Source of the DNA: Hyphomicrobiales bacterium
Lineage (GTDB): Bacteria > Pseudomonadota > Alphaproteobacteria > Rhizobiales > Xanthobacteraceae
DNA length: 64,000 nucleotides
Direction: 5' to 3'
NCBI GenBank assembly: GCA_017305715.1
Contig: JAFKKG010000037.1
Location: 1 to 64,000 of the forward strand
A program made the position numbers and the translations under genes. How positions within the stretch are numbered: the stretch's first letter is position 1; every line of letters starts with the position of its first letter. Below the pieces are notes generated by a model that was not told the origin of the DNA, made no database searches, and was given only the letters and a program-made list of their open reading frames with translations. Below are positions 2,515 through 64,000 of this stretch, piece by piece.

Positions 2515-3375
2515 ATGCCGATCGTATACGACGAACTGATGGCCCTGAAAAATCTCGGCCAGAAATACGCCTACACCGACCGCGAAGTGATGCTCTATGC
2601 CTATGGCATCGGGATGGGCGCCGATCCCCTGGACGAGAAGGAACTGGCCTTCGTCAACGAAGGCGTGCTGACGCCGCGTCCGTTGAAGGTGGTCCCGACC
2701 TTCGCGTCCGTCGCGGCCTGGGGTGCCGGTCCCGGCGACATGAAGATCAACCGCCTGATGGTGGTCGACGGCGAGCGCGACATCACCTTCCACAAGCCGT
2801 TCGCGACGGCTGCCAACATCACCGCCGATTCCTCCGTGCTCGATATCTTCGACAAGGGCAAGGACAAGGGTGCCGTCATCCGCCACCAGACGGTGCTGAA
2901 GGATGAGAAGGGCGAAAAGCTCGCCACGCTGGTGGCCTCGCGCTTCGCGCGTGGCGACGGCGGGTTCGGCGGGCCGTCCGAAGGCCAGCCCGAGCCGCAC
3001 AAGGTGCCGAACCGCGCGCCGGACAAGACCGTCGATATCACGACGCGCCCGGACCAGGCGCTGGTCTATCGCCTGTGCGGCGACCGCAACCCGCTGCACT
3101 CAGACCCCGAATTCGCCAAGAAGGCCGGCTTCCCAAAACCGATCCTGCACGGCATGTGCACCTACGGTATTACCTGCCGCGGCGTGCTGCAGACCTATGC
3201 CGATTACGATCCGTCCGCCTTCCGGCAGCATGCGGCGCGGTTCTCCTCACCGGTCTATCCGGGCGAGACCGTGACGATGGAATTGTGGAAGGACGGCAAC
3301 GTCGTGTCCTTTGAAGCCAAGGTGAAGGCGCGGGGCGTCACGGTGATCAAGAGCGGCAGGACGGTGCTGGGATAA
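2515..3375 (+). CDS. MaoC family double hot-dog enoyl-CoA hydratase 2
   Basis: A 286-residue (R)-specific enoyl-CoA hydratase resembling the hydratase-2 part of peroxisomal MFE-2. The N-terminal half is a degenerate hot-dog fold. The C-terminal half carries the hydratase-2 signature YRLCGDRNPLHSDPEFA (about residues 184-200), with the catalytic Asp/His pair, followed by GFPKPILHG. It would hydrate a trans-2-enoyl-CoA to the (3R)-hydroxyacyl-CoA, which the SDR encoded downstream can oxidise. It is in line with the thiolase/DUF35 pair and the SDR. An AAGGA element precedes ATG 2515. Likely chain length and side groups of the substrate cannot be read from the sequence. Confidence 0.9.
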   Translation: MPIVYDELMALKNLGQKYAYTDREVMLYAYGIGMGADPLDEKELAFVNEGVLTPRPLKVVPTFASVAAWGAGPGDMKINRLMVVDGERDITFHKPFATAANITADSSVLDIFDKGKDKGAVIRHQTVLKDEKGEKLATLVASRFARGDGGFGGPSEGQPEPHKVPNRAPDKTVDITTRPDQALVYRLCGDRNPLHSDPEFAKKAGFPKPILHGMCTYGITCRGVLQTYADYDPSAFRQHAARFSSPVYPGETVTMELWKDGNVVSFEAKVKARGVTVIKSGRTVLG

Positions 3376-49049: not shown

Positions 49050-49163
49050 TGACGGACCTTAAATGAGGATAATCACCGGTCCAAGTTGGGCCCAGTCAGG
49101 CCAGCATCATTGACTTCATAAGAACAAAATAGGAACATGCACTTCCGTTACGAGATCAGCCTC

Positions 49164-49370
49164 ATGTCCTCCTCCCTACCGGCACCCGAACCGAATGACG
49201 AGCTGGAAACGGCGGTGGATCAGGCCATTTCGGCCTGCGGCGGGGATGTGCGCGCGACCATCCGGGCGCTGATCGTGGCCAATGAATATCTGGAATCGGA
49301 GGTCGGCGAGCTGATGAAGGCGGTCTCGCACGCCTATGCGCGGGGCCGGTTTAACAGCTATTCCGGCTGA
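49164..49370 (+). CDS. Small helical hypothetical protein
   Basis: A 68-residue protein: ELETAVDQAISACGGDVRAT, then IRALIVANEYLESEVGELMK and AVSHAYARGRFNSYSG. A helix-loop-helix with a GGDVRATIRALI turn. I recall close relatives in other Bradyrhizobium genomes; function not known. ATG 49164 begins the conserved part; ATG 49137 is in frame upstream. Confidence 0.68.
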   Translation: MSSSLPAPEPNDELETAVDQAISACGGDVRATIRALIVANEYLESEVGELMKAVSHAYARGRFNSYSG

Positions 49371-49539
49371 TCGGGCTTGTTGGTTGGCTCGGACGCCGCC
49401 GGCCTGAGAACGCGGGCCTGCAACAGGACCGTTGCCTCGGTCGATTTTTGCTGTACGACGGGTTTGTTACCCGCGTTCCCGCATGTCACATTGCGGGTGA
49501 GGATCCTGCCCCAAGGCTTAAAGCTCAAGCAAGAAGCAC

Positions 49540-51555
49540 ATGTTCAAACGAATTCTGATCGCAAATCGCGGCGAGATCGCCTGCCGGGTCATCAAGACTG
49601 CGCGGCGCATGGGGATCCAGACGGTAGCCGTTTATTCCGAGGCCGACCGCGATGCGCTCCATGTCGAGATGGCCGATGACGCCGTGCTGATCGGCCCGCC
49701 GGCCGCCGCCGAGAGCTATCTGGTGATCGAGAAGATCGTCGAGGCCTGCCGCAAGACCGGCGCCGAGGCGGTGCATCCCGGCTACGGCTTCCTGTCCGAG
49801 CGCGAATCCTTTCCGCGCGCGCTGGAGGCCGCCGGCGTCGTCTTCATCGGCCCCAACCCCGGCGCGATCGCCGCGATGGGCGACAAGATCGAATCCAAGA
49901 AGGCCGCCGCGAAAGCAAAAGTCTCGACGGTGCCGGGACATCTCGGCGTCATCGAGGACGACAAGCATGCGGTGAAGATTGCCGACGAGATCGGCTATCC
50001 CGTGATGATCAAGGCTTCCGCGGGCGGCGGCGGCAAGGGCATGCGCATCGCGCATTCGAGGTCCGAAGTCGCCGAAGGTTTCAATCTCGCCAAGGCCGAG
50101 GCCAAATCCTCGTTCGGCGACGACCGCGTCTTCATCGAGAAATTCATCGTCGATCCCCGCCACATCGAAATCCAGGTGCTGGGCGACAAGCATGGCAACG
50201 TGATCTATCTCGGCGAGCGCGAATGTTCGATCCAGCGCCGCAACCAGAAGGTCATCGAGGAAGCCCCGTCGCCGCTGCTCGACGAAACCACCCGCCGCAA
50301 GATGGGCGAGCAGGCCGTCTCACTGGCCAAAGCCGTGAACTATGATTCCGCCGGCACGGTGGAATTCGTCGCCGGCCAGGACAAGAGCTTCTACTTCCTG
50401 GAAATGAATACCCGCCTGCAGGTCGAGCATCCCGTCACCGAACTGATCACCGGTATCGATCTGGTCGAGCAGATGATCCGCTCCGCCGCGGGCGAGAAAC
50501 TGCAACTGGCGCAGAAGGACGTCACGCTGACCGGCTGGGCGGTGGAATCGCGCGTCTATGCCGAAGATCCGTTCCGCAATTTCCTGCCCTCGATCGGACG
50601 CCTGGTCAAATACCGCCCGCCCGCCGAGGCCAGCCATGACGGCATCACGGTCCGCAACGATACCGGCGTGCAGGAGGGCGGCGAGATTTCGATCCATTAC
50701 GATCCGATGATCGCCAAGCTCGTGACGCATGCGCCGTCGCGGGCGGCCGCGATCGAGGCGCAGTCGGCGGCGCTGGATGCCTTCTATGTCGACGGCATCC
50801 GCCACAACATCCCGTTCCTGTCGGCCCTGATGAGCCATCCGCGCTGGCGCGAGGGCAAGCTTTCGACCGGGTTCATCGCCGAAGAGTTTCCGAAAGGTTT
50901 TGCGGCGCGGCCGCCCGAGGGCGAGATCGCGCGGCGGCTGGCCGCGGTGGGCGCGGCGATCGATCATGTGCTCGGCGAACGCAAGCGGCAGATCTCCGGC
51001 CAGCTCAACGGCCGGCTGGTGCAGCGCGAGCGCCGCCGCGCGGTGTGGCTCGACCGCGAGGAAATCGCGCTCGACGTCGCGCGCGAGGCCGACGGCATCG
51101 CGGTGCGTTTCATCGGCGCCGACGATCTGCCGGGCAATCCGCATCAACTGGTCTCGAACTGGACCCCGGGCGTCCCGGTCTGGCAGGGCACCATCGACGG
51201 CCATTATGTGGCCATGCAGGTGCGCGCGATCCCGAACGGCTTCCGCCTGTCGCATCAGGGTTTTGAGGTGGCGGTCAACGTCTTCACCGAGAGCGAGGCG
51301 GCGGCAGCCCGGCTGATGCCGGTGACGTCGGCGGCCGATACCGGCAAGAAGCTGCTGTGCCCGATGCCCGGGCTCGTGGTGTCGATCGCGGTTGCCGAAG
51401 GCCAGGAGGTCAAGGCCGGCGAAACGCTGGCCGTGGTCGAGGCGATGAAGATGCAGAACGTGCTGCGCGCCGAACGCGACGGCACCGTGAAGAAGATCCA
51501 CGCCGCCGCCGGCGCCACGCTCGCGGTGGACGCGCTGATTCTGGAATTTGCTTGA
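49540..51555 (+). CDS. pccA: Acyl-CoA carboxylase alpha subunit (biotin carboxylase-BCCP)
   Basis: A 671-residue biotin carboxylase/carboxyl-carrier fusion of the propionyl-/acetyl-CoA carboxylase type. Order: ATP-grasp biotin carboxylase with FKRILIANRGEIACRVIKTA at the start, KASAGGGGKGMRIAHS (phosphate loop), EMNTRLQVEHPVTE (catalytic motif), then the BT linker domain and the biotinyl domain with K637 in VVEAMKMQN near the C-terminus. Biotin is attached to K637. It carboxylates biotin and passes CO2 to a separate carboxyltransferase (beta subunit), which is not encoded here. The symbol is by family; methylcrotonyl-CoA or geranyl-CoA carboxylase is an alternative. Confidence 0.9.
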   Translation: MFKRILIANRGEIACRVIKTARRMGIQTVAVYSEADRDALHVEMADDAVLIGPPAAAESYLVIEKIVEACRKTGAEAVHPGYGFLSERESFPRALEAAGVVFIGPNPGAIAAMGDKIESKKAAAKAKVSTVPGHLGVIEDDKHAVKIADEIGYPVMIKASAGGGGKGMRIAHSRSEVAEGFNLAKAEAKSSFGDDRVFIEKFIVDPRHIEIQVLGDKHGNVIYLGERECSIQRRNQKVIEEAPSPLLDETTRRKMGEQAVSLAKAVNYDSAGTVEFVAGQDKSFYFLEMNTRLQVEHPVTELITGIDLVEQMIRSAAGEKLQLAQKDVTLTGWAVESRVYAEDPFRNFLPSIGRLVKYRPPAEASHDGITVRNDTGVQEGGEISIHYDPMIAKLVTHAPSRAAAIEAQSAALDAFYVDGIRHNIPFLSALMSHPRWREGKLSTGFIAEEFPKGFAARPPEGEIARRLAAVGAAIDHVLGERKRQISGQLNGRLVQRERRRAVWLDREEIALDVAREADGIAVRFIGADDLPGNPHQLVSNWTPGVPVWQGTIDGHYVAMQVRAIPNGFRLSHQGFEVAVNVFTESEAAAARLMPVTSAADTGKKLLCPMPGLVVSIAVAEGQEVKAGETLAVVEAMKMQNVLRAERDGTVKKIHAAAGATLAVDALILEFA

Positions 51556-51556
51556 G

Positions 51557-51657
51557 CCGTCATGCCGGGGCGCGAAGCGAACCTCAGATGCGCAATTGCG
51601 CATCGGGGAATCTCGAGATTCCGGGTCTGGTCCCTCTGACCATCCCGGAATGACGGA
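51557..51657. repeat. Interspersed repeat (CGGAATCTCGAGATTCCGG family)
   Basis: Starts CCGTCATGCCGGGG, carries GATGCGCAATTGCGCATC and GGAATCTCGAGATTCC dyads, then CCATCCCGGAATGACGG. It is the mirror-ordered relative of the copy at 29424-29524 and overlaps in content with 4453-4504. It lies in the gap between the carboxylase and the ICL-family gene. Confidence 0.72.
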
Positions 51658-51673
51658 AAGTAAGAGGTGCCCG

Positions 51674-52540
51674 ATGGCCTTCCGCGCCCGCCGCGAAAAA
51701 TTGCGCTCCATCCTCAACGGATCGACCTGTATCCGACCCGGCTCGGTCTATGACGCGACCTCGATCCGGATTGCCGAGGACCTCGGCTTCGAACTCGGCA
51801 TGTTCGGCGGCTCGGTGGCCTCGCTGGCGGTGCTCGGCGATCCCGACGTTGCCCTGATCACGCTCACCGAACTCGCCGAGCAGATGCGCCGGATGTCGCG
51901 CGCTGCGCAACTGCCCGTGCTGGTCGATGCCGACCATGGTTACGGCAATGCGCTCAATGTCCGCCGCACCGTGCAGGAGCTCGAAGCGGCCGGTGCGGCC
52001 GGACTGACGATCGAGGACACGCTGCTGCCGCAAGCCTTCGGAGAGGCGAAGACGCAGTTGATTTCGCTGGAAGAAGGCGTCGGCAAGATGAAGGCCGCGC
52101 TCGACGGGCGGGGCGATCCCTCGCTGGTCATCCTGGGCCGTACCGGTGCGGTGTCGATCACCGGCCTCGACGATGCCGTTGCGCGCGCGAAAGCCTATGA
52201 GGCTGTCGGCGTTGACGGGCTGTTCTTCACCGGCATCAAGAACCGCGGGGAACTGGAAGCGCTTGTCGCCGCGACCCATCTGCCGATCGTGCTCGGTGGT
52301 GCGCCGGAAGAGATGACCGCGCCGGACTATCTCGTCACCCAGCGCGTGCGGATCGCGTTGCAGGGGCATGCGCCGTTCGCGGCGGCGACGCAGGCGGTCT
52401 ACGACACGCTCAAGGCGTTGCGCGATGGGACGTCGCCGAAGAATCTCAAGGGCCTCGCATCGGCTGAACTGACCGGCCGGGCCATGCGCGAGGCGGACGT
52501 CAAGGCGCGCAGCAATGAATTTCTCGGGCTGAAGAAGTAG
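51674..52540 (+). CDS. ICL/PEP mutase superfamily protein, oxaloacetate decarboxylase-like
   Basis: A 288-residue TIM-barrel protein of the isocitrate lyase/PEP mutase superfamily. Substrate-site motifs: RPGSVYDATSIRIAEDLGFE, MFGGSVASLAVLGDPD, LVDADHGYGNALNV (Asp/His Mg site) and GLTIEDTLLPQAFGE. The arrangement matches oxaloacetate decarboxylase members (PA4872 type) rather than true isocitrate lyase, which has the KKCGH motif, absent here. Its likely reaction is decarboxylation of oxaloacetate or a related 2-keto acid. Preceded by an interspersed repeat, and probably read from the carboxylase promoter or its own. Confidence 0.87.
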   Translation: MAFRARREKLRSILNGSTCIRPGSVYDATSIRIAEDLGFELGMFGGSVASLAVLGDPDVALITLTELAEQMRRMSRAAQLPVLVDADHGYGNALNVRRTVQELEAAGAAGLTIEDTLLPQAFGEAKTQLISLEEGVGKMKAALDGRGDPSLVILGRTGAVSITGLDDAVARAKAYEAVGVDGLFFTGIKNRGELEALVAATHLPIVLGGAPEEMTAPDYLVTQRVRIALQGHAPFAAATQAVYDTLKALRDGTSPKNLKGLASAELTGRAMREADVKARSNEFLGLKK

Positions 52541-52614
52541 AGCATGATCCGGGAAAGTGGGAACCGGTTTTCCCTCGCGACAAACGCGAAACACGTTTGC
52601 GCGGAGATCATGCC
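52541..52614. repeat. Interspersed repeat (AGCATGATC...GATCATGC family)
   Basis: Begins AGCATGATCCGGGAAAGTGG directly after the stop codon TAG and ends GATCATGC. The inner part has AACCGGTTTTCC. This is a very frequent rhizobial intergenic repeat, apparently bounded by complementary ends. It could form a hairpin in the transcript. Confidence 0.75.
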
Positions 52615-52626
52615 CGAGGGTAGATC

Positions 52627-52926
52627 ATGAGTGGGGCGATCCGCCATGTCACGGTCACGGGCCGGGTGCAGGGCGTCGGTTACCGCGCCTGGGTCGCGGG
52701 CGAAGCGTCGGCGCGCCATCTCGAAGGCTGGGTCCGCAATGTCAGGAATGGCAACGTCGAGGCGCTGTTCGCGGGGCCCGTGGAAGCCGTCGCCGACATC
52801 ATCGCGGCATGCCGGCGCGGGCCGTCCATGGCGCGGGTCGAGGCGGTGAAGGAAGACGGCGGCAATCCCGATGCGCTCGGACTGCGCCGGGCAGGGGAGC
52901 GGTTTTCGGTGCTGCCGACCGTTTGA
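52627..52926 (+). CDS. acyP: Acylphosphatase
   Basis: A 99-residue acylphosphatase that hydrolyses acyl phosphates such as acetyl- or carbamoyl-phosphate. The signature is [18 protein letters not shown], with the catalytic Arg in GVGYR, and [17 protein letters not shown] with the catalytic Asn in VRNG. The length matches single-domain acylphosphatases. ATG 52627 begins the fold directly. It may be co-transcribed with the ICL-family gene. Confidence 0.93.
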
Positions 52927-52934
52927 CGCCGGAG

Positions 52935-53087
52935 TCAGAAAAAGCCTGGGCTCAGATCCAGACCGTAGGTCATCATCAGTACGGACACGAGCAAGCCGGC
53001 CGCGGCAAACAGCACGAGCTGCTTCAACACCTCGATGTCGTTGATCGTGATGAACACGCGTGACAGCGCGCGCGCGATCGTCGTCAT
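52935..53087 (-). CDS. Very small membrane protein (50 aa)
   Basis: A 50-residue protein read on the minus strand: MTTIARALSRVFITINDIEV, then LKQLVLFAAAGLLVSVLMMT and YGLDLSPGFF. One clear hydrophobic helix (VLFAAAGLLVSVLMMTYGL) after an amphipathic N-terminus. GGAGGT lies seven bases before the start codon, a strong ribosome binding site. Function unknown. It converges with the acylphosphatase gene (8-base gap). Confidence 0.72.
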   Translation of the reverse strand: MTTIARALSRVFITINDIEVLKQLVLFAAAGLLVSVLMMTYGLDLSPGFF

Positions 53088-53279
53088 TGGTGACCTCCAT
53101 GCGTTTAACCCGACTGGCGCACGGATAGGTCAATCTGTCGCAGTTGAATGTGAGCTACGTCACCTATCACGCAAACGTAGGTCGGAGCGCTTCCAGCGAA
53201 AGCCTGTCCCGCACCTGCGGAATTGCGTATTTCCAAAACGCGATGCCGCGTGTGGCGATGCGGCAGGTCACGACCCGCT

Positions 53280-53990
53280 TCACCGGCGCTGCGCCGCGAG
53301 CTTGCGGTAGAGTTTCTCCAATTGGATCAGGTGCGCTTCCATCGCCATTGTCGCGGCATCCGCATCCTTGGACTTGAAACATTCGATGAGGCGATACCTG
53401 ATCGGCATCACGAATTTCGGCGGCACCAATCCCGCAGAACGAACGAACTGGAGGATCATTTCGCTGACGGCGTCGTTAATGAGCGCGATCACCGGGTTCT
53501 TGGCCATATTGCCGAGCAGGTGATAAAACTCGAGATTTAGCCGCTGCCGACCTTCCAGATCGCCGATCGCGATAGCCTCTTCCGCCCTTCGAACGTTTTC
53601 CTCCAGATGGCGAATGTCGTCGGACGTGCACCGAAGACATGCCAACCGAACGATGGTTGGAAGCAAAATGACACGTGCTTCGGTCAAATTCTCCGATGAA
53701 ATGCTGCCCAGGTGAAACAGATCGACGATGACGGAGCGAATCGCCGTGCCGCCATCCTGGCTGATAAATGCTCCGCCGGAAGGGCCCTTCCTGACGTCGA
53801 CGAGCCCGACTTGCTTGAGTGACGTAATTGCCTTGCGGATGGTATTTCGACTTATCCCCAGCGCATCCGCGAAGTCGCGTTCGGTCGGAAGCCGATCGCC
53901 CTTGGCAAGCGTGCCGCTGGCAATCATTTGCCGCACCTGAGCGACGATTTGCTGCGAAGGATTGTCGCCGGTAACCTTCTTGAATCGCAA
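53280..53990 (-). CDS. GntR/FCD (FadR-type) transcriptional regulator
   Basis: A 236-residue regulator. The GntR winged helix is residues 1-75: NPSQQIVAQVRQMIASGTL, GDRLPTERDFADALGISRNT and KGPSGGAFISQDGG. An all-helical FCD ligand domain follows (LTEARVILLPTIVRLACLRC, RLNLEFYHLLGNMAKNPVIA), the type that binds carboxylates or acyl-CoAs with a metal. It is divergent from the CoA-transferase operon. Three copies of ATGGGT-N-ACCCAT in the two control regions suggest the operator, though binding is inferred from position. Confidence 0.93.
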   Translation of the reverse strand: MRFKKVTGDNPSQQIVAQVRQMIASGTLAKGDRLPTERDFADALGISRNTIRKAITSLKQVGLVDVRKGPSGGAFISQDGGTAIRSVIVDLFHLGSISSENLTEARVILLPTIVRLACLRCTSDDIRHLEENVRRAEEAIAIGDLEGRQRLNLEFYHLLGNMAKNPVIALINDAVSEMILQFVRSAGLVPPKFVMPIRYRLIECFKSKDADAATMAMEAHLIQLEKLYRKLAAQRR

Positions 53991-54162
53991 AACTAATCCT
54001 TCCGTCGCTTACGAATTCATCATCAGTGTTTACGGCAGTTTGCCTTTGCGCTGAAGGGTTCGGTTCGAAATTTCGCAGCGCCGCCGGCCGAGCTTGACCT
54101 ATCCACCGTCCGATAAAACGGGGACCGGCACAACGGTATAGACAACAATTGGCATCCATCTT

Positions 54163-54175
54163 ATGGGTGACCCAT
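54163..54175. promoter_or_regulatory. Predicted GntR operator 1
   Basis: ATGGGTGACCCAT, a 13-base palindrome (ATGGGT-G-ACCCAT), lies between the GntR gene and the first CoA transferase gene, 88 bases before GTG 54261 and 173 bases from the regulator start. TTGGCA at 54149-54154 upstream could be a -35 box, so the operator would lie in the promoter spacer. Short perfect symmetry with two further copies elsewhere in the cluster argues against chance. Confidence 0.78.
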
Positions 54176-54260
54176 TAAGGCTGGCGATCACTCGTGCGAG
54201 GCTTGACCGGCCGATGTGCGGGAACGGACGAACATGTCTGAGCGTGGATAGGAGAGATCA

Positions 54261-55517
54261 GTGAGCTCATTAGGGCAGCGCCCACGCTTTGCCGGGCCTT
54301 CGGCCCGGCCTGATGCGCCGACCGCGATTGATGGAATTCGGGTCGTCGATTTCAGCCATTTCCTGGCCGGCCCGTTTTGCAGCCTGATCCTGGGTGACCT
54401 TGGCGCAGAGGTCATCAAGATTGAGAAGCGGGATGGGGGTGACGACCTGCGCCGCTTTCAACCATCGGTGGGGCATGGCCAGGGTGCCGCCTTCATCTGG
54501 GGCAATCGCAACAAGAAAAGCATTGCACTCGACCTGAAGCAGCCGGACGGCATACAGGTCGCGCGTGATCTCGTCGCGCGCTCTGACGTGTTGATCGAGA
54601 ATTTCTCCACCGGAACAATGGAGAGGTTGGGGTTGGGATACGACGCCTTATCCGCAATCAATCCGGGCCTGATCTATTGTTCTATTTCGGCCTATGGCAG
54701 AACCGGGCCACTCAGGGACCGGATGGGCTTTGACCCCATCGTGCAGGCCGAAAGCGGATACGTTTCGCTCAATGGCGACGCCGACGGCTTCGGGATGCGG
54801 TCCACATCGTCGATCATGGACATCAGCACCGGAATGATGGCTTGCAACGCGGTGCTGGCTGCTCTGTTTTCCCGGCAACGCCTCGGCAAGGGGCAATTCA
54901 TAGAGTGTGCCCTGTTTGATCAAGCTGTCACGATGCTCGGCTTTCACGCCATGAACTATCTCGTGAGCGGGGAGCTTGCACGACGTTCCGGCAACGCGAG
55001 CCGTGAGACCGTGCCGACCGGAGCGTTCCTGGCCTCGGATGGCCCCTTCTACGTCTCTTGCGCGAATGACCGGACCTATCAAAGGCTATGTCGGTCCCTC
55101 AACAGGGAAGACCTTGCGGGCAGTGCCGAGTTTCTTACGAGCAAGGATCGCGTCAAAAATCGCGATCGGCTGCTTGCGACACTCGCGGCGATTTTTGAGA
55201 AGCGTCCGCGTGCCGAATGGCTCGAAAAACTGCGGCAGGAGAGTGTGCCCGCAGGCCCAATCAACAACCTTGCAGAAGCGTTTCTGTCGCCAGAGATGCA
55301 GCAACGGGAGCTGGTGAGCGAAATCGATCATCCAACAGCGGGTCCGATCCCCAACATTGCCCTACCGTTCCGCTTGACGGGCACGCCACTGGCGAACCCG
55401 GTTGCGGCTCCACTTCTCGGGCAGCATACATCGGAGATTTTGCGCGATATCCTTGGCTATGATCAGGCTCGAATCGAAAGCTTGCTTCGATCCAGCGCAG
55501 CGGAATCCAGGATTTGA
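54261..55517 (+). CDS. CaiB/BaiF family CoA transferase
   Basis: A 418-residue class III CoA transferase that moves CoA from one carboxylate thioester to another. Typical features: RVVDFSHFLAGPFCSLILGD, GAEVIKIEKRDGGDD, GNRNKKSIALDLKQPDG and GLIYCSISAYGRTGPLRDR. The acyl acceptor is unknown. GTG 54261 (GGAGAG upstream) is the start. With the operator upstream it should be under GntR control. A 223-bp gap to the next unit holds two more operator copies, so the two CoA transferase genes probably have separate promoters. Confidence 0.92.
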   Translation: MSSLGQRPRFAGPSARPDAPTAIDGIRVVDFSHFLAGPFCSLILGDLGAEVIKIEKRDGGDDLRRFQPSVGHGQGAAFIWGNRNKKSIALDLKQPDGIQVARDLVARSDVLIENFSTGTMERLGLGYDALSAINPGLIYCSISAYGRTGPLRDRMGFDPIVQAESGYVSLNGDADGFGMRSTSSIMDISTGMMACNAVLAALFSRQRLGKGQFIECALFDQAVTMLGFHAMNYLVSGELARRSGNASRETVPTGAFLASDGPFYVSCANDRTYQRLCRSLNREDLAGSAEFLTSKDRVKNRDRLLATLAAIFEKRPRAEWLEKLRQESVPAGPINNLAEAFLSPEMQQRELVSEIDHPTAGPIPNIALPFRLTGTPLANPVAAPLLGQHTSEILRDILGYDQARIESLLRSSAAESRI

Positions 55518-55666
55518 GGCGAGACTGCCGAGACGCATGCGCCGGCCTGGAAAGCTCTTTTGTGCCGAATAGCCCGCATCCAGGCCCGCATTCTGCTTGG
55601 GTCCCGCGGCGCCAACCCGTCCCTCACCTGATTGCCGGCAACTAAATCAGAACCAGTGACTTGCCA

Positions 55667-55679
55667 ATGGGTCACCCAT
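55667..55679. promoter_or_regulatory. Predicted GntR operator 2
   Basis: ATGGGTCACCCAT, identical to operator 1 except for the central base (or the reverse complement of it). It is 61 bases before the second CoA transferase start. TTGCCA directly precedes it at 55661-55666 and could be a -35 box. Its centre is 31 bases, about three helical turns, from operator 3. Confidence 0.8.
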
Positions 55680-55697
55680 AGTCTACAGCTCTGATCA

Positions 55698-55710
55698 ATG
55701 GGTGACCCAA
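55698..55710. promoter_or_regulatory. Predicted GntR operator 3
   Basis: ATGGGTGACCCAA, one mismatch from the perfect palindrome at the last base. It lies 30 bases before ATG 55741, in the probable transcript start region. Together with operator 2 it forms a double operator in phase on the DNA helix, consistent with cooperative repression. Confidence 0.75.
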
Positions 55711-55740
55711 AGATTCTGCATTCCAGGGATCGAACTTCAA

Positions 55741-56976
55741 ATGACGGAAACATCGACGGTCGACGGCGGAATGCCCGAGCTGCGTCCTTTGTCGGGGATC
55801 AAGGTGATCGACCTGACCAGCATGCTCGCGGGCCCATACTGTGCGCGATGGCTGGCTGATCTCGGGGCCGAAGTTGTCAAGATCGAATCGATCGCCGGCG
55901 ATTACATGCGTAATACTTCGCCGGTTCGCGACGGGCGAAGCGCCTATTTCGCCCATCTCAATACTGGCAAGCAGAGTGTCGCGGTCGATCTGAAGAAAGA
56001 GGCCGGAGTTCGCATCGTCCGTGAGCTTGCCACGACATCGGACATCGTTCTGGAGAATTTTCGTCCAGGCGTCATGGCTCGACTGGGTGTGGGATACGAA
56101 ACATTGCGGCAACTCAACCCGAGGCTGGTGTACTGCGCGATCTCCGGTTACGGGCAGGACGGGCCCGGGTCGGCGAGGCCGGCTTACGCCGCGATGGTCC
56201 ATGCCTCCAGCGGCTTTGATCTGGCAACAATGGATGCCCAGGGAGATGCAGTCCGACCGCAGACATGCGGCGTGCAGATTGCCGACGTGCTGGCTGCCGT
56301 TTTCGCCTGCACGGCAATTCAGACAGCCTTGCTGCATCGCAATCGAACCGGCGTCGGACAATGCATCGATCTATCGCTGTTCGATGGGATGCTTAACTTG
56401 CTCCCCGCACAGTTCCAGCAAACGCAATTTCCCGGCGCCGAGCAAAAACGGCCCTTTTACCCACCGCTGCCCGCACGAGACGGGTTCGTGACCATCATGC
56501 CGCTGACGCAGCAAAATTTCTCGTCGATGTGCAATGCCATGGGGCATGCGGAATGGGTAACAGATGAGCGGTTCAGCACGCCTGGCATGCGCTTCCGAAA
56601 CTGGCGGCCCTTGATTGAGGAAATGTCATTCTGGACGTCAAAGCGCAGCGCCGGTGAATGCGAAGATATTTTGGTGCGCGGCGGTGTGCCCGTGGCGCGT
56701 TACCGCACCCTGGCCGAGGCCATCGTCGACCCTCAGACGGCGCATCGGAAGGTCGTGCATGAAACTTCCGACGGTTCGGGCATGCTGGGCGTGATCGGGC
56801 TGCCGTTTCGTTTGTCGGGCTGCGAGACCTCTCCGGGGAAGCACGTCCCTGACCTCGGTGAACATACCGCCCAGGTCCTCCGTGAGCGTCTTGGATATCG
56901 CGATGCGGAGATCGCATCGCTCCTAACCCTGAATGTCATCGCTTGCGCGGCATCAGCTGATGTTACGTCACCTTGA
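55741..56976 (+). CDS. CaiB/BaiF family CoA transferase
   Basis: A 411-residue class III CoA transferase. KVIDLTSMLAGPYCARWLAD, GAEVVKIESIAGDYMRNTSP, LNTGKQSVAVDLKKEAG and YCAISGYGQDGPGS are typical. It is only distantly similar to the first CoA transferase, so the two may form a heteromer or use different acids. ATG 55741 begins just after operator 3; GTG 55702 falls inside the operator and is rejected. The next gene is an acyl-CoA dehydrogenase, 41 bases downstream. Confidence 0.92.
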   Translation: MTETSTVDGGMPELRPLSGIKVIDLTSMLAGPYCARWLADLGAEVVKIESIAGDYMRNTSPVRDGRSAYFAHLNTGKQSVAVDLKKEAGVRIVRELATTSDIVLENFRPGVMARLGVGYETLRQLNPRLVYCAISGYGQDGPGSARPAYAAMVHASSGFDLATMDAQGDAVRPQTCGVQIADVLAAVFACTAIQTALLHRNRTGVGQCIDLSLFDGMLNLLPAQFQQTQFPGAEQKRPFYPPLPARDGFVTIMPLTQQNFSSMCNAMGHAEWVTDERFSTPGMRFRNWRPLIEEMSFWTSKRSAGECEDILVRGGVPVARYRTLAEAIVDPQTAHRKVVHETSDGSGMLGVIGLPFRLSGCETSPGKHVPDLGEHTAQVLRERLGYRDAEIASLLTLNVIACAASADVTSP

Positions 56977-57017
56977 GTGGCGACGGTTAAGTCACTAGTA
57001 CAGGAGAGATACCTTCA

Positions 57018-58154
57018 ATGGACTTCAATCTGCCAGCGGAAGCGGAAGAGTTGCGACGATCGGCGCGTGCCGTCGTCGACACCTTGTTGAAGCATGAGCC
57101 CGAATTCCACGCGACAAATCGCGTGCCGGATATCGTGGACGAGACGCTCTGTCGGCTGGGGTATTACGGCCTCGCGATCCCTGAGGAATACGGCGGGTTG
57201 GACTGCGACCTTCTGACTTCCGCTGCCATTCAACTCGAATTGGCGCGCATGCCACCGCAGTTTTGGCCGCTGATCCGCTCGGCGGTAGGGCCGACGCCCC
57301 ATGCCATCATTCGCCACGGAACCAAGGCGCAGAAAAATGAGTGGCTGCCGCAAATTGCGACCGGCGCGAAGCGCGTCTGCTTTGCGCTCACCGAGCCCGG
57401 TGGCGGTTCTGACGTCGTCGCCATGAAAACGACGGCCGTCCGAAAAGGGGACCGCTACATACTTAATGGCACCAAGACCTTCATCTCGAACGCCAACAAG
57501 GCGGACGTCATCGCGGTGTTCGCCTATACGGATCGGAGCAAGGGACGCGATGGCATATCGGCATTGCTGGTTACGCCCGGAACAAAAGGCTTTCACATCA
57601 GCAAGCCCATGAAGACGATGGGCTGGATGGTCGATGGTCTGTTCGAATTGTCGTTTCAGGACTGCGAAGTTCCGGTCGAGAACCTCCTGGGAGAAGAAGG
57701 CAAAGGATTTTACTACGCGCTTGAAGGCTTGAGTGAGGCGCGCCTCAACGTGGGCTGCCAGGCGATCGGGGGCGGCGACATCGCCTATGAGGCAACGCTG
57801 AACTACGCAAAGGAGCGCAAGACGTTCGGAGCGTCCTTGGCCAGCCATCAGGCCGTACAGCACATGCTCGCAGATATGATGATCGACCAGCACGCCGCAC
57901 GACAAGTCCTGTTCGAGGCGTTCTGGCGCGCCGAGCGCGGTGAGGACGTTCGGTTGAAATCTGCCATTGTCAAAGTCTTCTGCACGGAAGCCGCTAACCG
58001 GACGGCCGATCGCGCGCTGCAAATACATGGGGGAGCCGGTTACATCAGCGGCATGATTGTTGAACGGGTCTATCGTGATCTGCGGGTGCTGCGCATCTAT
58101 GAGGGCGCCTCCGAAATCCAGCGCAACATGATAGCGAAGCAACTGCTCAGATAA
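57018..58154 (+). CDS. Acyl-CoA dehydrogenase
   Basis: A 378-residue FAD-dependent acyl-CoA dehydrogenase of normal length, which introduces the alpha,beta double bond and passes electrons to ETF. Motifs: CFALTEPGGGSDV, RYILNGTKTFISNANKADV, YAKERKTFGASLASHQAVQH, ALQIHGGAGYISGM and the catalytic-base region RIYEGASEIQRN, where E362 fits the usual Glu position. It follows the second CoA transferase closely and would act on its acyl-CoA product. No ETF genes are in the window. Confidence 0.93.
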   Translation: MDFNLPAEAEELRRSARAVVDTLLKHEPEFHATNRVPDIVDETLCRLGYYGLAIPEEYGGLDCDLLTSAAIQLELARMPPQFWPLIRSAVGPTPHAIIRHGTKAQKNEWLPQIATGAKRVCFALTEPGGGSDVVAMKTTAVRKGDRYILNGTKTFISNANKADVIAVFAYTDRSKGRDGISALLVTPGTKGFHISKPMKTMGWMVDGLFELSFQDCEVPVENLLGEEGKGFYYALEGLSEARLNVGCQAIGGGDIAYEATLNYAKERKTFGASLASHQAVQHMLADMMIDQHAARQVLFEAFWRAERGEDVRLKSAIVKVFCTEAANRTADRALQIHGGAGYISGMIVERVYRDLRVLRIYEGASEIQRNMIAKQLLR

Positions 58155-58190
58155 TCGACGCCGTCGAAAAAAATAATGAGGAAACGTCCA

Positions 58191-59171
58191 ATGTCTCTTG
58201 GTTCGGGCTTGTTGAAGGCTGTCTTGTCGATAGCGATACTCATGAGCGGCGGCGGGATCGCTCATGCCCAGGATTATCCTTCTCGCATCATCACGCTGGT
58301 CGTTCCCTATCCGCCGGGCGGCCCGACGGACACCATCGCCCGCTTGCTGGCCGAGAGGGCGGGCAGGGAACTGAAACAGAAGATCATTGTCGAGAACAAG
58401 CCGGGCGCTGGCGGCAACATTGGCACCAATTCTGTCGCGCGTAGCGCGCCCGATGGATACACGCTCTGTTTGAGCACCAATGGTCCGCTCGCCGGAAATC
58501 TGAGCTTGGTCGCGAACATGCCATACGATCCGCTAAAGGACCTCGCTCCCGTTACGCTGGTCACACAGGTTCCTTCCGTATTAGCGGTCAACCCGTCCGT
58601 GAATGCCCTCGATGTGCCCCAACTTGTCGACCTGCTGAAGTCGCATCCGTCGCAGTACAATTTCGCTTCCGCGGGTCTGGGAACGAGCTCGCATTTTGCA
58701 GGAGAGCTCTTCAAGAGTACCGCGATGGTTCAAATGGTGCATATCCCGTTCAACGGTGATGGACCATCGCTCCAGGCTGTAGTGGCGGGCCATGTGCAGA
58801 TTTTCTTCGGCAGCGTGGCTACTGCGCTTCCGAATATCGAGGCGGGAAAGCTGCGCGTACTGGCGGTGACGTCGGCCGCGCGTGTGCCGGTATTACCGAA
58901 CGTGCCAACGCTCTCCGAAGCCGGCCTGACGGGATTTGATCTGGGTGGTTGGTATGCCATCGTCGCCCCGGCTGGCGTCAATCCAGCCGTGATCGAGAAG
59001 CTGAACAAGGCCTTCGTCGTGGCGGTGCACGACACCGAAGTGAGTGACCGGATCAAGTTGATGGGAGGAATTCCTGTGGCCGGCCCGCCCGGAGAAGTCA
59101 CGGATCTGATTCATCGAGATATTGCCCGGTGGGCCAACATTGCGCGAGGTGCCGGCATCAAGCGAGAATGA
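58191..59171 (+). CDS. Bug/TctC family periplasmic binding protein
   Basis: A 326-residue periplasmic receptor. The signal peptide ends AHAQ (about residue 27). Family motifs: YPSRIITLVVPYPPGGPTDT, VENKPGAGGNIG and GYTLCLSTNGPLA. It is the last gene of the GntR-controlled unit, so it should bind the carboxylate activated by the CoA transferases. ATG 58191 has GAGGAAA upstream and is preferred over ATG 58176. There is no TctA/TctB gene, as with the other two Bug receptors here. Confidence 0.9.
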   Translation: MSLGSGLLKAVLSIAILMSGGGIAHAQDYPSRIITLVVPYPPGGPTDTIARLLAERAGRELKQKIIVENKPGAGGNIGTNSVARSAPDGYTLCLSTNGPLAGNLSLVANMPYDPLKDLAPVTLVTQVPSVLAVNPSVNALDVPQLVDLLKSHPSQYNFASAGLGTSSHFAGELFKSTAMVQMVHIPFNGDGPSLQAVVAGHVQIFFGSVATALPNIEAGKLRVLAVTSAARVPVLPNVPTLSEAGLTGFDLGGWYAIVAPAGVNPAVIEKLNKAFVVAVHDTEVSDRIKLMGGIPVAGPPGEVTDLIHRDIARWANIARGAGIKRE

Positions 59172-59307
59172 CGCGACCGGTATACCTCGTTGGCGGAGTG
59201 GACGGTGTGGTTCAACCGCCGAGCATGGTCCAGTTCTCGGTCTCGTCCGCCCTTGTGAAGGTTTTCGGGATGGAGGTTGCGAGGCGAGAGGTCGGATCAC
59301 GCCGCTG

Positions 59308-60123
59308 TCAATGGCCTTTGCCGGCGTAAAGCTGATAGAGCGTGATGACGACTTCGAACGCGATCAGGGCGACGATGATGAGCTCGAGGCGCAAGGTCCG
59401 GCGTGTGTCGATGATGTCGGCGAGCGTATCGGCGGTTTCCGCGACCACGGCGAGCTTCCGGTTGAGCGCGTCGAGGCGCTCCTTGAGTTCGTATTCGTCT
59501 TCGAGCCGGGCGTAGAGCCGCTCGAGGTCGGGACGTTCCCACAATGCATCGGGTTTTTCGCCGATCGCCACGCGTCCGGATACCCGGTGCTGGACCAACA
59601 GCGCATTGCCGATCAGTTGCATCAGCCCTTTCCGGTCCCGCCGGGTTCGTCCGTGATCGGCGAGCTCTTTCGCAAAGGGTTCGATGATCTCGAATACCTT
59701 GGCCACCTCGCGTTCGTCGTGGGCCAGCACGACGCTCTTGGCCAGCACGTCGGCGATCACGAGCAGCCGTTCCGCCGACATGTCCCGCAACTGAACCGGG
59801 CCGCCCGAGGATACCTGATCCTCGGTCTCGCCGGCGCAGGCGAGAGTAACGGCTTCTTCCTCGCGGCGCGCCAGTTTGCCGTCGATGCGGGGCTTCAGCG
59901 CTTCCAGGAAAGCGGTTTCTTCCTCTGCTGTCAGGCCGATCAGGACCGCGACCCCGTAGCGAAACAGGACGGCGACGCCGGCCTTGCCGGCCCGAATCGC
60001 GACCGGCATCGCCGAGAGCGCTTCGGCTTCGAAGCCGACCGTGTTGATCCGGTCGCCGACATGCAGCGCATGTGCTGTTACCCGAGTTCCGATTTCAGCG
60101 GCAATGAACTCGGGTTTTGTCAT
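59308..60123 (-). CDS. RMD1/YagE family (DUF155) protein
   Basis: A 271-residue protein of the RMD1/DUF155 family, known in eukaryotes as mitochondrial RMND1 and yeast Rmd1. Motifs: RTAHALHVGDRINTVGF is not exact, but GKAGVAVLFRYGVAVLIGLT and FIAAEIGTRVTAHALHV are readable; a helical C-terminal domain ends with a hydrophobic helix (LIIVALIAFEVVITLYQLYAG), which anchors the protein in the membrane. The bacterial function is not known. The mitochondrial relatives support translation and complex assembly. ATG 60123 is used; the longer start at 60144 is possible. Confidence 0.82.
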   Translation of the reverse strand: MTKPEFIAAEIGTRVTAHALHVGDRINTVGFEAEALSAMPVAIRAGKAGVAVLFRYGVAVLIGLTAEEETAFLEALKPRIDGKLARREEEAVTLACAGETEDQVSSGGPVQLRDMSAERLLVIADVLAKSVVLAHDEREVAKVFEIIEPFAKELADHGRTRRDRKGLMQLIGNALLVQHRVSGRVAIGEKPDALWERPDLERLYARLEDEYELKERLDALNRKLAVVAETADTLADIIDTRRTLRLELIIVALIAFEVVITLYQLYAGKGH

Positions 60124-60265
60124 CGTGCAGCTCCTCGGAAGCATATTCGCCGGGACTGAAGACTGTGCGCATTTGATGACAGGCGTGCTGTGGGTTTCTA
60201 CGGCGATTTGCTCGCGGTCAATATAGCATCAGTTGGGCCCTGATGCCTTTACCAGAGGCTGCGCG

Positions 60266-62218
60266 CTAATGTGCCGGGTCTCGCTCGCCGGGCGCGAGTT
60301 CAGGATCGTGCTGGATCGAACCGGCCTCGACATATCGCAGCTCCAGCGACGAATAGGCGATGCTGCGGTTGCGGCCGAGGCGCTTGGCTTCGTAGAGCCC
60401 GATGTCGGCCTCGCCGACCAGGGCTGTTTCTCCAAGCGTCGCGCGCGTCCGGGTCGCAATGCCGACGCTGATGGTGAGGTAGCCGCGGGTGGCGGCGCTG
60501 TTGGGCAGGCCGAGCGCGCGCACGGTCAGCCTGATCTTTTCGGCGACTTTCAGCGCCTCGTCTTCGGACATGTTCGGCAGGACGACGGCGAATTCCTCGC
60601 CGCCATAGCGCGCGGACAGCCCTGACGTGTTCGATGTCGCATCGCCGATGACCCTGGCGACGGCCTGCAGACAGCGGTCGCCGGCCTGGTGTCCGTAGGT
60701 GTCGTTGTAGCCCTTGAAGTTGTCGATATCGCACAGCAGCACCGAAATCTCTTCGCAGGCCGCGTATTCCCGCGACAGAAAGCCGTCGAAGGTGCGGCGG
60801 TTGGTCAATCCCGTCAAACCATCGGTGGCGGCAAGCTGGGCGAGGCGGCGGTTGAGCAGGGTCAGCTCCTCTTCCATCCGCCGGCGCTCCGTGACGTCGC
60901 GCAGCACGCCGACGAATTCGGCCTCGGCGGGATCGTCGCGGCGCGAGGCCTGCTTGAAATGACTCTCGACCCAAACGATGGATCCATCGGCACAAAACGT
61001 CCGGAACTCGGCGGTGCTGACGGTGCCCGATCCGTTGAGGCGGGCGCTGGCGGCCATCACGCGTTCCTTGTCCTCGGCGTGAACCAGGTCGAAGCAGGAT
61101 TTGCCCACAAGGTCGTGGGCACGAACGCCCAGCATCTGCTCGACCGAATGGGACACATAGCGAAGCGTGCCGCGGCCATCGAGCAGGATCACGACGTCGG
61201 CGATATTGTCGGCCAGCAGGCGATAATGCGATTCGCTCCGTCGAAGCGCGCGCTCTGTCCTGATGCGAAAATTGAACTGCGACGAGAGCAGGGCCGCGAG
61301 CAGGATGATCATGCACAACAGCACTCCGGCCACGAGCGCATCGGTGCGCAGTGCTTGCGACCAGGCTGCCAGCAGCCAGTCCTCGGACATCGCCACCGTG
61401 ACGATCAGCGGATATTGCGGCGTTTGCTCGTAGCCGAAATATTTTACGACGCCGTCGAACGGCGAGGTGATCTTGTAGTATCCGACCGAGCTCAGCTTGA
61501 GCTGGGTCGTAAACAGGTCGGATTTGGAGAGATCGGTGCTCCGGTTTGTGAACGGCCAGCGCATGAGGACGGCGCCGTCATCGCGCAACAGGCTGATGCC
61601 GCCGTCGGGGCCGAGCTGGAACGTGCGGTAGAAGCCGCTGAAATAATCGCTGTCGATCGCCGCCGTCAGCACGCCGCCGAAACTGCCGTCCGGTTTGCTG
61701 ATGCGCTTCGAAAGCAGGATCGTCGGCCGCCCGGTGAGGCGTGATTGAAATGACTCGCTGATGCGAAGCGCCTTGTCGGGGTTGTCGCGATGGAACGCAA
61801 AATAGGGCCGGTCGCCATTATTGTAGCCTGGTGTTTCGGGCAGCGACGAGTAGCGCCATTTTCCGCTGGTATCGAGGGCGCCAATTTCGCGTATCTGGGG
61901 CAGCGCGGCCACCGTCTCGGCCATGTATTTGTTAAAGCGCTCCGGCAACGGATCCTGGTACCTCAAAAGGTCGACCATGCCCGTCATCGCGATGTCGGCG
62001 GCCTGAATGCTGTGTGCGGCGTGCTCGCTCAGCGAATGGGCGAGATTTTGGATGTCGGCCGCGCCGCGCGCCAGCGCCGCGGACTTGGCCTCCAGCGCCT
62101 TCCAGATGACGACGCCCAGGATGCAGGCGGTCATGATCAGCGCAAAGAAGATCACCACCATCCCGGGGGTGATCCGCCGGAGCCAGCCGCTTTGGTTCGG
62201 GATGGATTGATAGGGCAT
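60266..62218 (-). CDS. Diguanylate cyclase with Cache-type sensor and PAS
   Basis: A 650-residue membrane-bound GGDEF protein. Order: TM helix (MVVIFFALIMTACILGVVIW, about 19-38), a periplasmic dCache-like sensor (ADIAMTGMVDLLRYQDPLPE to about 280), a second helix (ALVAGVLLCMIILLAALLSS, near 290-310), a PAS domain with PAC (FVGVLRDVTERRRMEEEL), and a C-terminal GGDEF domain with RYGGEEFAVVLPN (GGEEF at residues 539-543). The GGEEF motif is a functional variant. No RxxD inhibitory site is seen at the expected position, so feedback inhibition by c-di-GMP is unlikely. Neighbour of a hybrid histidine kinase on the same strand. Confidence 0.93.
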   Translation of the reverse strand: MPYQSIPNQSGWLRRITPGMVVIFFALIMTACILGVVIWKALEAKSAALARGAADIQNLAHSLSEHAAHSIQAADIAMTGMVDLLRYQDPLPERFNKYMAETVAALPQIREIGALDTSGKWRYSSLPETPGYNNGDRPYFAFHRDNPDKALRISESFQSRLTGRPTILLSKRISKPDGSFGGVLTAAIDSDYFSGFYRTFQLGPDGGISLLRDDGAVLMRWPFTNRSTDLSKSDLFTTQLKLSSVGYYKITSPFDGVVKYFGYEQTPQYPLIVTVAMSEDWLLAAWSQALRTDALVAGVLLCMIILLAALLSSQFNFRIRTERALRRSESHYRLLADNIADVVILLDGRGTLRYVSHSVEQMLGVRAHDLVGKSCFDLVHAEDKERVMAASARLNGSGTVSTAEFRTFCADGSIVWVESHFKQASRRDDPAEAEFVGVLRDVTERRRMEEELTLLNRRLAQLAATDGLTGLTNRRTFDGFLSREYAACEEISVLLCDIDNFKGYNDTYGHQAGDRCLQAVARVIGDATSNTSGLSARYGGEEFAVVLPNMSEDEALKVAEKIRLTVRALGLPNSAATRGYLTISVGIATRTRATLGETALVGEADIGLYEAKRLGRNRSIAYSSLELRYVEAGSIQHDPELAPGERDPAH

Positions 62219-62408
62219 TTCCCGCCTTGATGGTGGAGTGCCAAATCGTTCTGACCGGCAAGGGGAACCGCGTGGGGCTTGAAGTTACTGCCCAATAGGT
62301 GGTGATGCGGTTAATAAACGCCTCAGGAAAACAACGGAGAAACCGGGATTTCGGTCGCGATACCCGAGGGAACCGGGGGCGAAACCCCTGTTGCGGAACG
62401 GTTCGTGG

Positions 62409-63932
62409 TCACCGCGGCAATTTGGCGATCGCCTGGCTCAACTGGTGGATTTCGTAGGGCTTGCGCAGGATGGGGAAATCGTCGCGAACGTTCACCGCGG
62501 CGTCGCTGTAGCCGGTCGCCAGCAGGATAGGCAACCGGGGCCGTATCGCCTTGAGGTGACGTGCCAAAGCGAGGCCGTCCATCTTGCCGGGCATCACGAT
62601 ATCGGAGAACACAAAATCGATTCCGTCGCGCTCGACTTCGCGCAACGCCGCTTCGGCGTTGTCGACCCTGCGGACGGTGTAGCCGAGCTGCTCCAGCAGG
62701 CTGCTGCTGACCGCGGCGACTTCCGGATTGTCGTCGACCAGCAGCACGGTGCCGCTGCCGCCGGACGCGGTGGCGCTGATCTCATCGACCGGCACATCGA
62801 TATCCTTCCGCGGCAGCAGGATCGCAATCTTCGTGCCCTTGCCGAGCTCGCTTGTCACCTTGACCGTGCCGCCGGCCTGATGCGCAAATCCGTGGACCTG
62901 CGAGAGGCCCAATCCCGTGCCCTTGCCGACCGGCTTGGTGGTGAAGAACGGGTCGAAGATCTTGCTGAGGACGTCGGGTGCGATGCCGGTGCCGCTATCC
63001 TCGACGGAAATCGCGACGTAGTCGCCGGAATGGGCCTCCTCGCGGAGTGTTGTGTTGTTGGCAGCGATCCTGATGTTTCCACCGTCCGGCATCGCATCCC
63101 GCGCGTTGATCACGAGATTGACCAGCGCCGTCTCGAGTTCGGTGACGTCGACCATGACCGGCCAGACGCTTCGACCGACGTCGAACTGCAGCGCTACTGT
63201 GCTGCCGACGCCGGTGCGCAGAACATCCCGTATCGCATCGATACGTTCGACGACATTGACCGCCTGAGGATTGACGCTCTGCCGCCGCGCGAACGTCAAC
63301 AACTGGCCAGTCAGCGCGGCACCGCGCCGGGATGCAGCCTCGATCGCCGATAGCGCACGTTGCAGCCGGGGTTCGTCGGGCACGCCCTTCCTGAGCGTAT
63401 GAAGGCTTCCGCTGATGATCATCAGCAGATTGTTGAAATCGTGTGCGACGCCGCCGGTGAGCTGGCCGAGGGCGTCGAGCTTCTGCGATTCCGCAAGTTT
63501 GGCCTGCATCTGCTCAACCTTGAGCTGGGCCTCGCGGCGTTCGGTGATGTCGCGGGTGATCTTGGCGAAACCGACCAGCCTGCCATCCTCGCGGATCGGG
63601 TCGATCATGACACTGGCCCAGAAGAAGGTGCCGTCCTTGCGAACGCGCCAGCCTTCTTCCTCGTAACGGCCTTGCTCCTCGGCGATTTTCAGCGCGCGCT
63701 GCGGCTTGCCGTTGGCACGATCGGTTTCGGTGTAGAAGGCGGAAAAGTGCCGCCCCAGGATTTCCGAGGGGGTATAACCCTTGATGCGCTCGCCGCCGAT
63801 ATTCCAGCTGGTGACGATGCCGTTGGGGTCGAGCATGTAAAGCGCGTAGTCGGCGACACCCTCGACCAGAAGCCGGAAACTGCGCTCGCTTTCGAACAGA
63901 TCCCTCTGGTTCTGCTTGGCTTTTCCGAACAT
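62409..63932 (-). CDS. Soluble PAS hybrid histidine kinase with receiver
   Basis: A 507-residue hybrid kinase. Order: PAS ([20 protein letters not shown], with [21 protein letters not shown] at [20 protein letters not shown]), HisKA with H164 in [15 protein letters not shown], HATPase ([32 protein letters not shown]), and a receiver domain with D444 in [13 protein letters not shown] and KPYE. The PAS core is of the type fused to such kinases in Bradyrhizobium, with a possible ligand. It lacks membrane segments. The phosphoryl group likely passes to its own receiver; an Hpt or output partner is not encoded here. Start ATG 63932 with the first PAS helix at residue 15. Confidence 0.92.
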
Positions 63933-64000
63933 CTAGACCCCCACGCAATGAGCCAGAACGCGTGGCAGACCGATTGGTTCCAGTTGCCGGGCAAGTTTTA

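Follow-up and report, generated by a model that had tools for sequence, protein, structure and literature searches.

A putative self-contained regulon of an FCD-type GntR regulator, with an operator and a recognition helix that may have changed together

A 13-base palindrome, ATGGGTNACCCAT, lies in two control gaps of a cluster that encodes a GntR/FCD regulator, two CoA transferases, an acyl-CoA dehydrogenase and a TctC receptor, near the end of the 64,000-nucleotide stretch of DNA analysed here (the window). This raised the question of which protein reads the palindrome, and which genes are controlled through it. The original prediction had proposed that a single FCD regulator serves a small regulon made up of its own gene and two further units. 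Our best reading is that the cluster could form a self-contained regulon in which the operator and the recognition helix of the regulator have changed together. The features referred to below are the following.

53280-53990, minus strand: GntR/FCD regulator gene, 236 amino acids (open reading frame, TTG start at 53990)
54163-54175: putative operator site 1, perfect, ATGGGTGACCCAT, in the 270-bp divergent gap
54261-55517, plus strand: CoA transferase 1, family III (open reading frame, GTG start; PF02515, E 1.5e-129)
55667-55679: putative operator site 2, perfect, ATGGGTCACCCAT, about 61-62 bp before the ATG of the second unit
55698-55710: putative operator site 3, one mismatch, ATGGGTGACCCAA, about 30-31 bp before the ATG of the second unit
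55741-56976, plus strand: CoA transferase 2, family III (open reading frame; PF02515, E 9.4e-107)
57018-58154, plus strand: acyl-CoA dehydrogenase (open reading frame; PF00441, E 6.5e-47; PF02770, PF02771)
58176-59171, plus strand: TctC (tripartite tricarboxylate) receptor (open reading frame; PF03401, E 7.9e-63)
52928-59306: island of 6,379 bases, in place of which the collinear same-genus genome G012 has 230 bp

Layout of the cluster and the control proposed for it

Direct reading of the sequence and a pattern search both placed the palindrome where it had been reported, with perfect copies at 54163 and 55667 and a copy with one mismatch at 55698; TGGGTNACCCA is present at all three sites. 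The claim that the window holds no further copies was also borne out, since the sole other place with up to two mismatches (56553-56565, two mismatches) lies inside the second CoA-transferase gene. The regulator gene is divergent from CoA transferase 1, and the 270-bp gap between them holds site 1, whose centre is 179 bp from the regulator start and 92 bp from the start of CoA transferase 1. Sites 2 and 3 lie in the 223-bp gap between the two CoA-transferase genes and, as had been noted earlier, are 31 bases apart centre to centre. At 10.5 bp per turn of the DNA helix, this spacing corresponds to about three helical turns. The start preferred for CoA transferase 2 is the ATG at 55741; its longest open reading frame begins at a GTG (55702) inside site 3. 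Intergenic distances of only 41 and 21 bases separate the three genes of the second unit (55741-59171), which are therefore probably carried on a single transcript. An AAGGA element (54002-53998, minus strand), read from the sequence, precedes the TTG of the regulator by six bases.

The N-terminal GntR winged helix was recognised in the regulator by PF00392 (E 9e-18, 64.1 bits against a cut-off of 27), and the C-terminal FCD domain by PF07729 (E 3.9e-18) and by its fold, the best PDB matches of the AlphaFold model (mean pLDDT 87) being FCD regulators. By these profiles, the protein belongs to the FadR/FCD subfamily of the GntR family, in which PdhR, LldR and GlcC share the same winged helix and FCD domain or fold, and it stays below the NCBIfam cut-offs of the named NanR (97.5 bits against 260), PdhR (78.7 against 330) and LldR (64.6 against 311). 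Likewise, the two CoA transferases scored 324.1 and 234.9 bits against the cut-off of 750 for succinate-glutarate CoA-transferase, and by score both are assigned to family III only, without a named substrate class. FCD repressors of organic-acid pathways (NanR, DhdR and the CsiR type) were set beside the regulator for comparison. NanR carries an Asp and three His residues at positions which we take to be the metal ligands of metal-binding FCD regulators. A phmmer alignment places Asn152, Tyr156, Arg198 and His220 opposite these residues, so that by sequence alignment one of the four positions (His220) is kept, which argues against a metal-bound small acid as the ligand of the regulator. Arg198 was invariant in both alignments.

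We regard it as likely that the three palindromes are operators of the regulator encoded at 53280-53990, controlling its own gene and two units and released by an acid-derived ligand, and that the operator changed along with the recognition helix. A dimer would read the TGGGT/ACCCA half-sites. Site 1 would control the divergent promoters of the regulator gene and CoA transferase 1, while sites 2 and 3, which face the same side of the DNA at a distance of three turns and immediately precede the start codon, would shut off the unit of CoA transferase 2, acyl-CoA dehydrogenase and TctC receptor. Release would be brought about by the pathway acid or its CoA ester, formed from the acid that the cluster handles. 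Here we infer binding, repression, autoregulation and ligand release. The position of site 1, which splits the divergent gap 0.66/0.34 (regulator/structural gene), fits a published rule: one study of the FadR subfamily describes divergent gene arrangements and site positions like those of the window, with regression slopes of 0.62/0.38 for single sites, and notes that both operons of a divergon usually share one site (PMC4494728).

The regulator may alternatively activate through these sites, or repress the structural genes only and not itself. Two observations are compatible with this arrangement: of the two divergent genes, that of CoA transferase 1 is the closer to site 1, and a scan for sigma-70-like promoters around the sites found no -10 or -35 elements (a terminator scan was likewise negative). 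However, sites 2 and 3 are separated from the ATG by 61 and 30 bp, where a bound protein would be well placed to block, and we consider activation or a lack of autoregulation unlikely.

Rarity of the palindrome and a sister operator around relatives

Randomised sequence, generated here and for the relative loci below as a first-order chain (which differs from exact dinucleotide shuffles), contained on average 0.04 sites with up to one mismatch per window, and three such places occurred in none of 100 randomised windows. Some repeated perfect 13-base odd palindrome was found in 52 of the 100, so repetition alone proves little; the unusual part is the three copies and their positions, rather than a repeated palindrome as such. 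The original prediction had called for a check of whether the palindrome is common genome-wide in unrelated promoters. The source genome (7,452,781 bases, 51 contigs) contains two perfect places, both in this cluster, and 13 one-mismatch places (55698 and 12 elsewhere), against 0.3 and 11.8 predicted from base composition alone. The motif is thus no common genome-wide element, and the one-mismatch copies elsewhere are at chance level. Eleven of these 12 lacked a regulator match at E 1e-4, the twelfth being the place of a paralog described below. Three of the 11 (L174, L176 and L179) fall inside TctC genes or no more than about 1 kb away from them. The copy in L176 (ATGGGTCAACCAT, 3264-3276, at C14:41264-41276 of the source genome) coincides with the probable start of a further TctC gene, and could be an additional target or a chance occurrence.

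Perfect copies of the palindrome were present in 17 of 194 other genomes of the genus, compared with 5 of 195 for a reversed control pattern; at E 1e-4, nothing in the 17 loci (each about 3 kb) matched the regulator. The tandem pair TGGGTNACCCA-N20-TGGGTNACCCA was found in one of 265 same-genus genomes, namely the source genome.

Searches for the regulator beyond its own genome, in partly overlapping draws, gave matches at E 1e-40 in 6/195 genus, 5/296 family and 1/289 class genomes, in 1/249 phylum genomes at 1e-45, and in 0/297 order genomes at the stricter 1e-48. The matches were 37-41% identical, and none of these draws yielded a close ortholog. The best relative among the matches listed for a named collection was 44% identical, with plasmids reaching 43%. 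A contig scan with the regulator's own peptides returned no relative. A second scan was run with the peptide pattern EALR[SA]LEx[AS]G; this pattern is selective for Glu53, Arg56 and Glu59 and would pass over any regulator with the helix found in the window. The best 80 of at least 372 relatives were kept (L061-L140). The full set of relative loci (L042-L140) numbers 99, or 95 after dropping four duplicates, and includes these best 80 of at least 372. Their regulators, mostly from Burkholderiales and Bradyrhizobium, are 36-44% identical to that of the window, which sits in the tree on a long branch (1.95) with unsure placement. CoA transferase 1 had no match above 53% in 149 relatives, the best match seen anywhere being 60% (L050).

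These related FCD regulators are surrounded by a candidate sister operator, WTGGTTNAACCAW. Within 1,372,047 bases around the 99 loci, WTGGNTNANCCAW occurred 94 times, against 1.6 in randomised sequence; duplicate removal left 91 sites, distributed over 61 of the 95 loci and missing from 34. At the varying position, the 182 half-sites carry T (153), A (14), C (9) or G (6). T is present in both halves of 68 of the 91 sites, and G in both halves, which is the symmetric form of the window, in 0/91. Strict gaps, which make up 8.8% of the DNA, hold 35 of the 91 sites, and 63 lie between 40 bp inside and 200 bp before a gene start as predicted with a home-made gene picker. With up to one mismatch allowed, TGGTTNAACCA was found in 76/95 loci compared to 5/95 randomised ones, leaving 19/95 without a near-match, and 182 kb of other fetched DNA contained no exact and four one-mismatch copies. 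The source genome has no WTGGTTNAACCAW anywhere. Among the 95 loci, 67 encode a family-III CoA transferase, 59 an acyl-CoA dehydrogenase, 56 a TctC protein, and 90 at least one of the three. The relatives resemble the window in gene company and in the skeleton of the operator, but differ in the operator itself, which is mostly WTGGTTNAACCAW.

Individual loci illustrate the placement of the sister sites. At L058, from Variovorax paradoxus VAI-C, the centre of one site is flanked by genes for TctC and a FadR-type regulator, and another site coincides with the start annotated for the gene of a CoA-transferase subunit. A site at the Delftia locus (L059) has Rieske and PDR/VanB genes on its two sides, which diverge from each other. 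The layout nearest to that of the window is found at L050, where the gene of a 38% identical regulator diverges from that of a CoA transferase sharing 60% identity with CoA transferase 1. The exact motif of the window is absent there, and near-matches to the sister motif occupy matching positions: TGGTTGAACCT in the divergent gap, centred about 101 bp upstream of the likely start (for the window, 92 bp), TGGATCAACCA 108 bp past the CoA transferase, and TTGTTGAACCA, which precedes TctC by about 100 bp. A paralogous regulator in the source genome (38-39% identical; L018, L042) has upstream of it ATGGGTGAACCAT, one of the 12 one-mismatch places elsewhere and a half-way form between the two operators. 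Beside this paralog (C40, about 256-264 kb) are acyl-CoA dehydrogenase and enoyl-CoA hydratase genes, with CoA-transferase and TctC genes further along.

The palindromes could also be operators of a different regulator encoded elsewhere, with the adjacent FCD gene a bystander. The exact motif does depart from the TKGT/ACMA boxes of the FadR subfamily, as given in PMC4494728, and its symmetric G/C form was met in 0/91 of the relatives' sites. On the other hand, of the 12 bases specified in the sister operator that surrounds relatives of this very regulator, the motif shares 10, and the paralog in the same genome has the half-way form. A regulator encoded elsewhere that also acted on other targets would require further perfect copies, of which the genome has none outside this cluster, and we find this explanation improbable. 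That the palindromes arose by chance within a short stretch is hardly tenable, since, despite the repeated palindromes in 52/100 randomised windows, three copies of the motif occurred in 0/100, all three lie in two control gaps of one cluster, and the sister motif is conserved around relatives. Control by the adjacent FCD regulator, as originally proposed, is probably right in outline, being supported by sites that are unique to the cluster in its genome, by relatives that carry the sister operator around similar genes, and by the position of site 1. Less favourable to it are the negative promoter scan around the sites, the relative loci that lack WTGGNTNANCCAW (34/95) or a near-match of TGGTTNAACCA (19/95), the absence of the symmetric G/C form from the relatives' sites, and the one-mismatch copy in L176.

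Operator change and recognition helix

The sites of the window differ from the sister operator through a single symmetric substitution, with G for T and C for A, and retain 10/12 of its specified bases. They would represent an altered version of the relatives' WTGGTTNAACCAW, to which an altered recognition helix of the regulator corresponds. The symmetric form being found in 0/91 sites of relatives, the exact operator rests on a single locus. The change falls within the TKGT/ACMA boxes, which PMC4494728 calls conserved in sites of the FadR subfamily; these boxes have T/A where the window's TGGGTNACCCA has G/C, and all three window sites depart from TKGT-N2-3-ACMA. This pattern is typical rather than defining, as NanR and BioR differ from it (same source). 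The PdhR box, AATTGGTnnnACCAATT, is an odd palindrome with TGG/CCA ends like the window operator (PMC7660256), unlike that of NanR, which binds direct GGTATA-type repeats (PMC8012715).

The regulator has Lys53, Thr56 and Lys59, all within the predicted recognition helix (residues 48-60 of the AlphaFold model), where all 19 rows of alignment A1 have Glu, Arg and Glu. A1 comprises 19 relatives found without selecting for the recognition helix, several of which are near-identical and represent fewer independent cases. As loci L061-L140 had been selected by the Glu53/Arg56/Glu59 peptide pattern, they were excluded from this comparison, and only the 19 rows of A1 count. In E. coli FadR, Glu-50 makes electrostatic bonds with Arg-35, Arg-45 and Arg-49, according to PMC4494728. 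In our reading, which uses the shared SRNT-x-R / TRTT-x-R motif, the position of this glutamate is taken in the window regulator by Lys53; the three DNA-binding arginines are kept.

The changed helix matches the changed operator in one case, and the helix changes may be the cause. We suggest, tentatively, that the pair has moved to a new specificity through Glu53Lys, Arg56Thr and Glu59Lys, including the loss of the arginine-holding glutamate, so that it would read GGGTNACCC and not GGTTNAACC. It would then be orthogonal to its relatives and to the paralog in the same cell, and the five-gene island could travel without cross-talk. By sequence comparison, the operator variant (91 sites) and the recognition-helix changes (19 rows of A1) were found in none of the relatives compared, and the operator was unreported in the openly licensed papers searched.

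Origin of the island and wider relevance

On both sides of the island, the window is collinear with G012 (49107-52927 and 59307-63981, about 82-87% identity). Most 500-base steps between 53001 and 59500 have a G+C content of 56-61%, against 62.6% for the whole window. Its absence from G012, its lower G+C content and the occurrence of the tandem pair in one of 265 genomes point to block acquisition, and the cluster looks as if it had been acquired as one block, switch included; the switch would then have come with its genes. A small open reading frame of 50 residues with a hydrophobic middle (52935-53087, minus strand) lacks a match in the part of G012 that is collinear with the window.

An FCD-regulated acyl-CoA cluster is of a known kind, and what sets this one apart is the operator variant together with the helix changes. 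If our reading is correct, the locus would be a clear example of joint change in a transcription factor and its operator, after or with horizontal transfer, and the paralog of the same cell would serve as an internal comparison. It would also link WTGGTTNAACCAW, the sister operator, with a large group of unnamed FCD regulators that are encoded next to genes for CoA transferases, acyl-CoA dehydrogenases and TctC proteins, making their regulons predictable. The closest acyl-CoA dehydrogenase seen (62% identity) is encoded on a plasmid of Variovorax sp. WS11 (L110, 12590-13726), adjoining a related FCD regulator, and its neighbourhood may point to the substrate.
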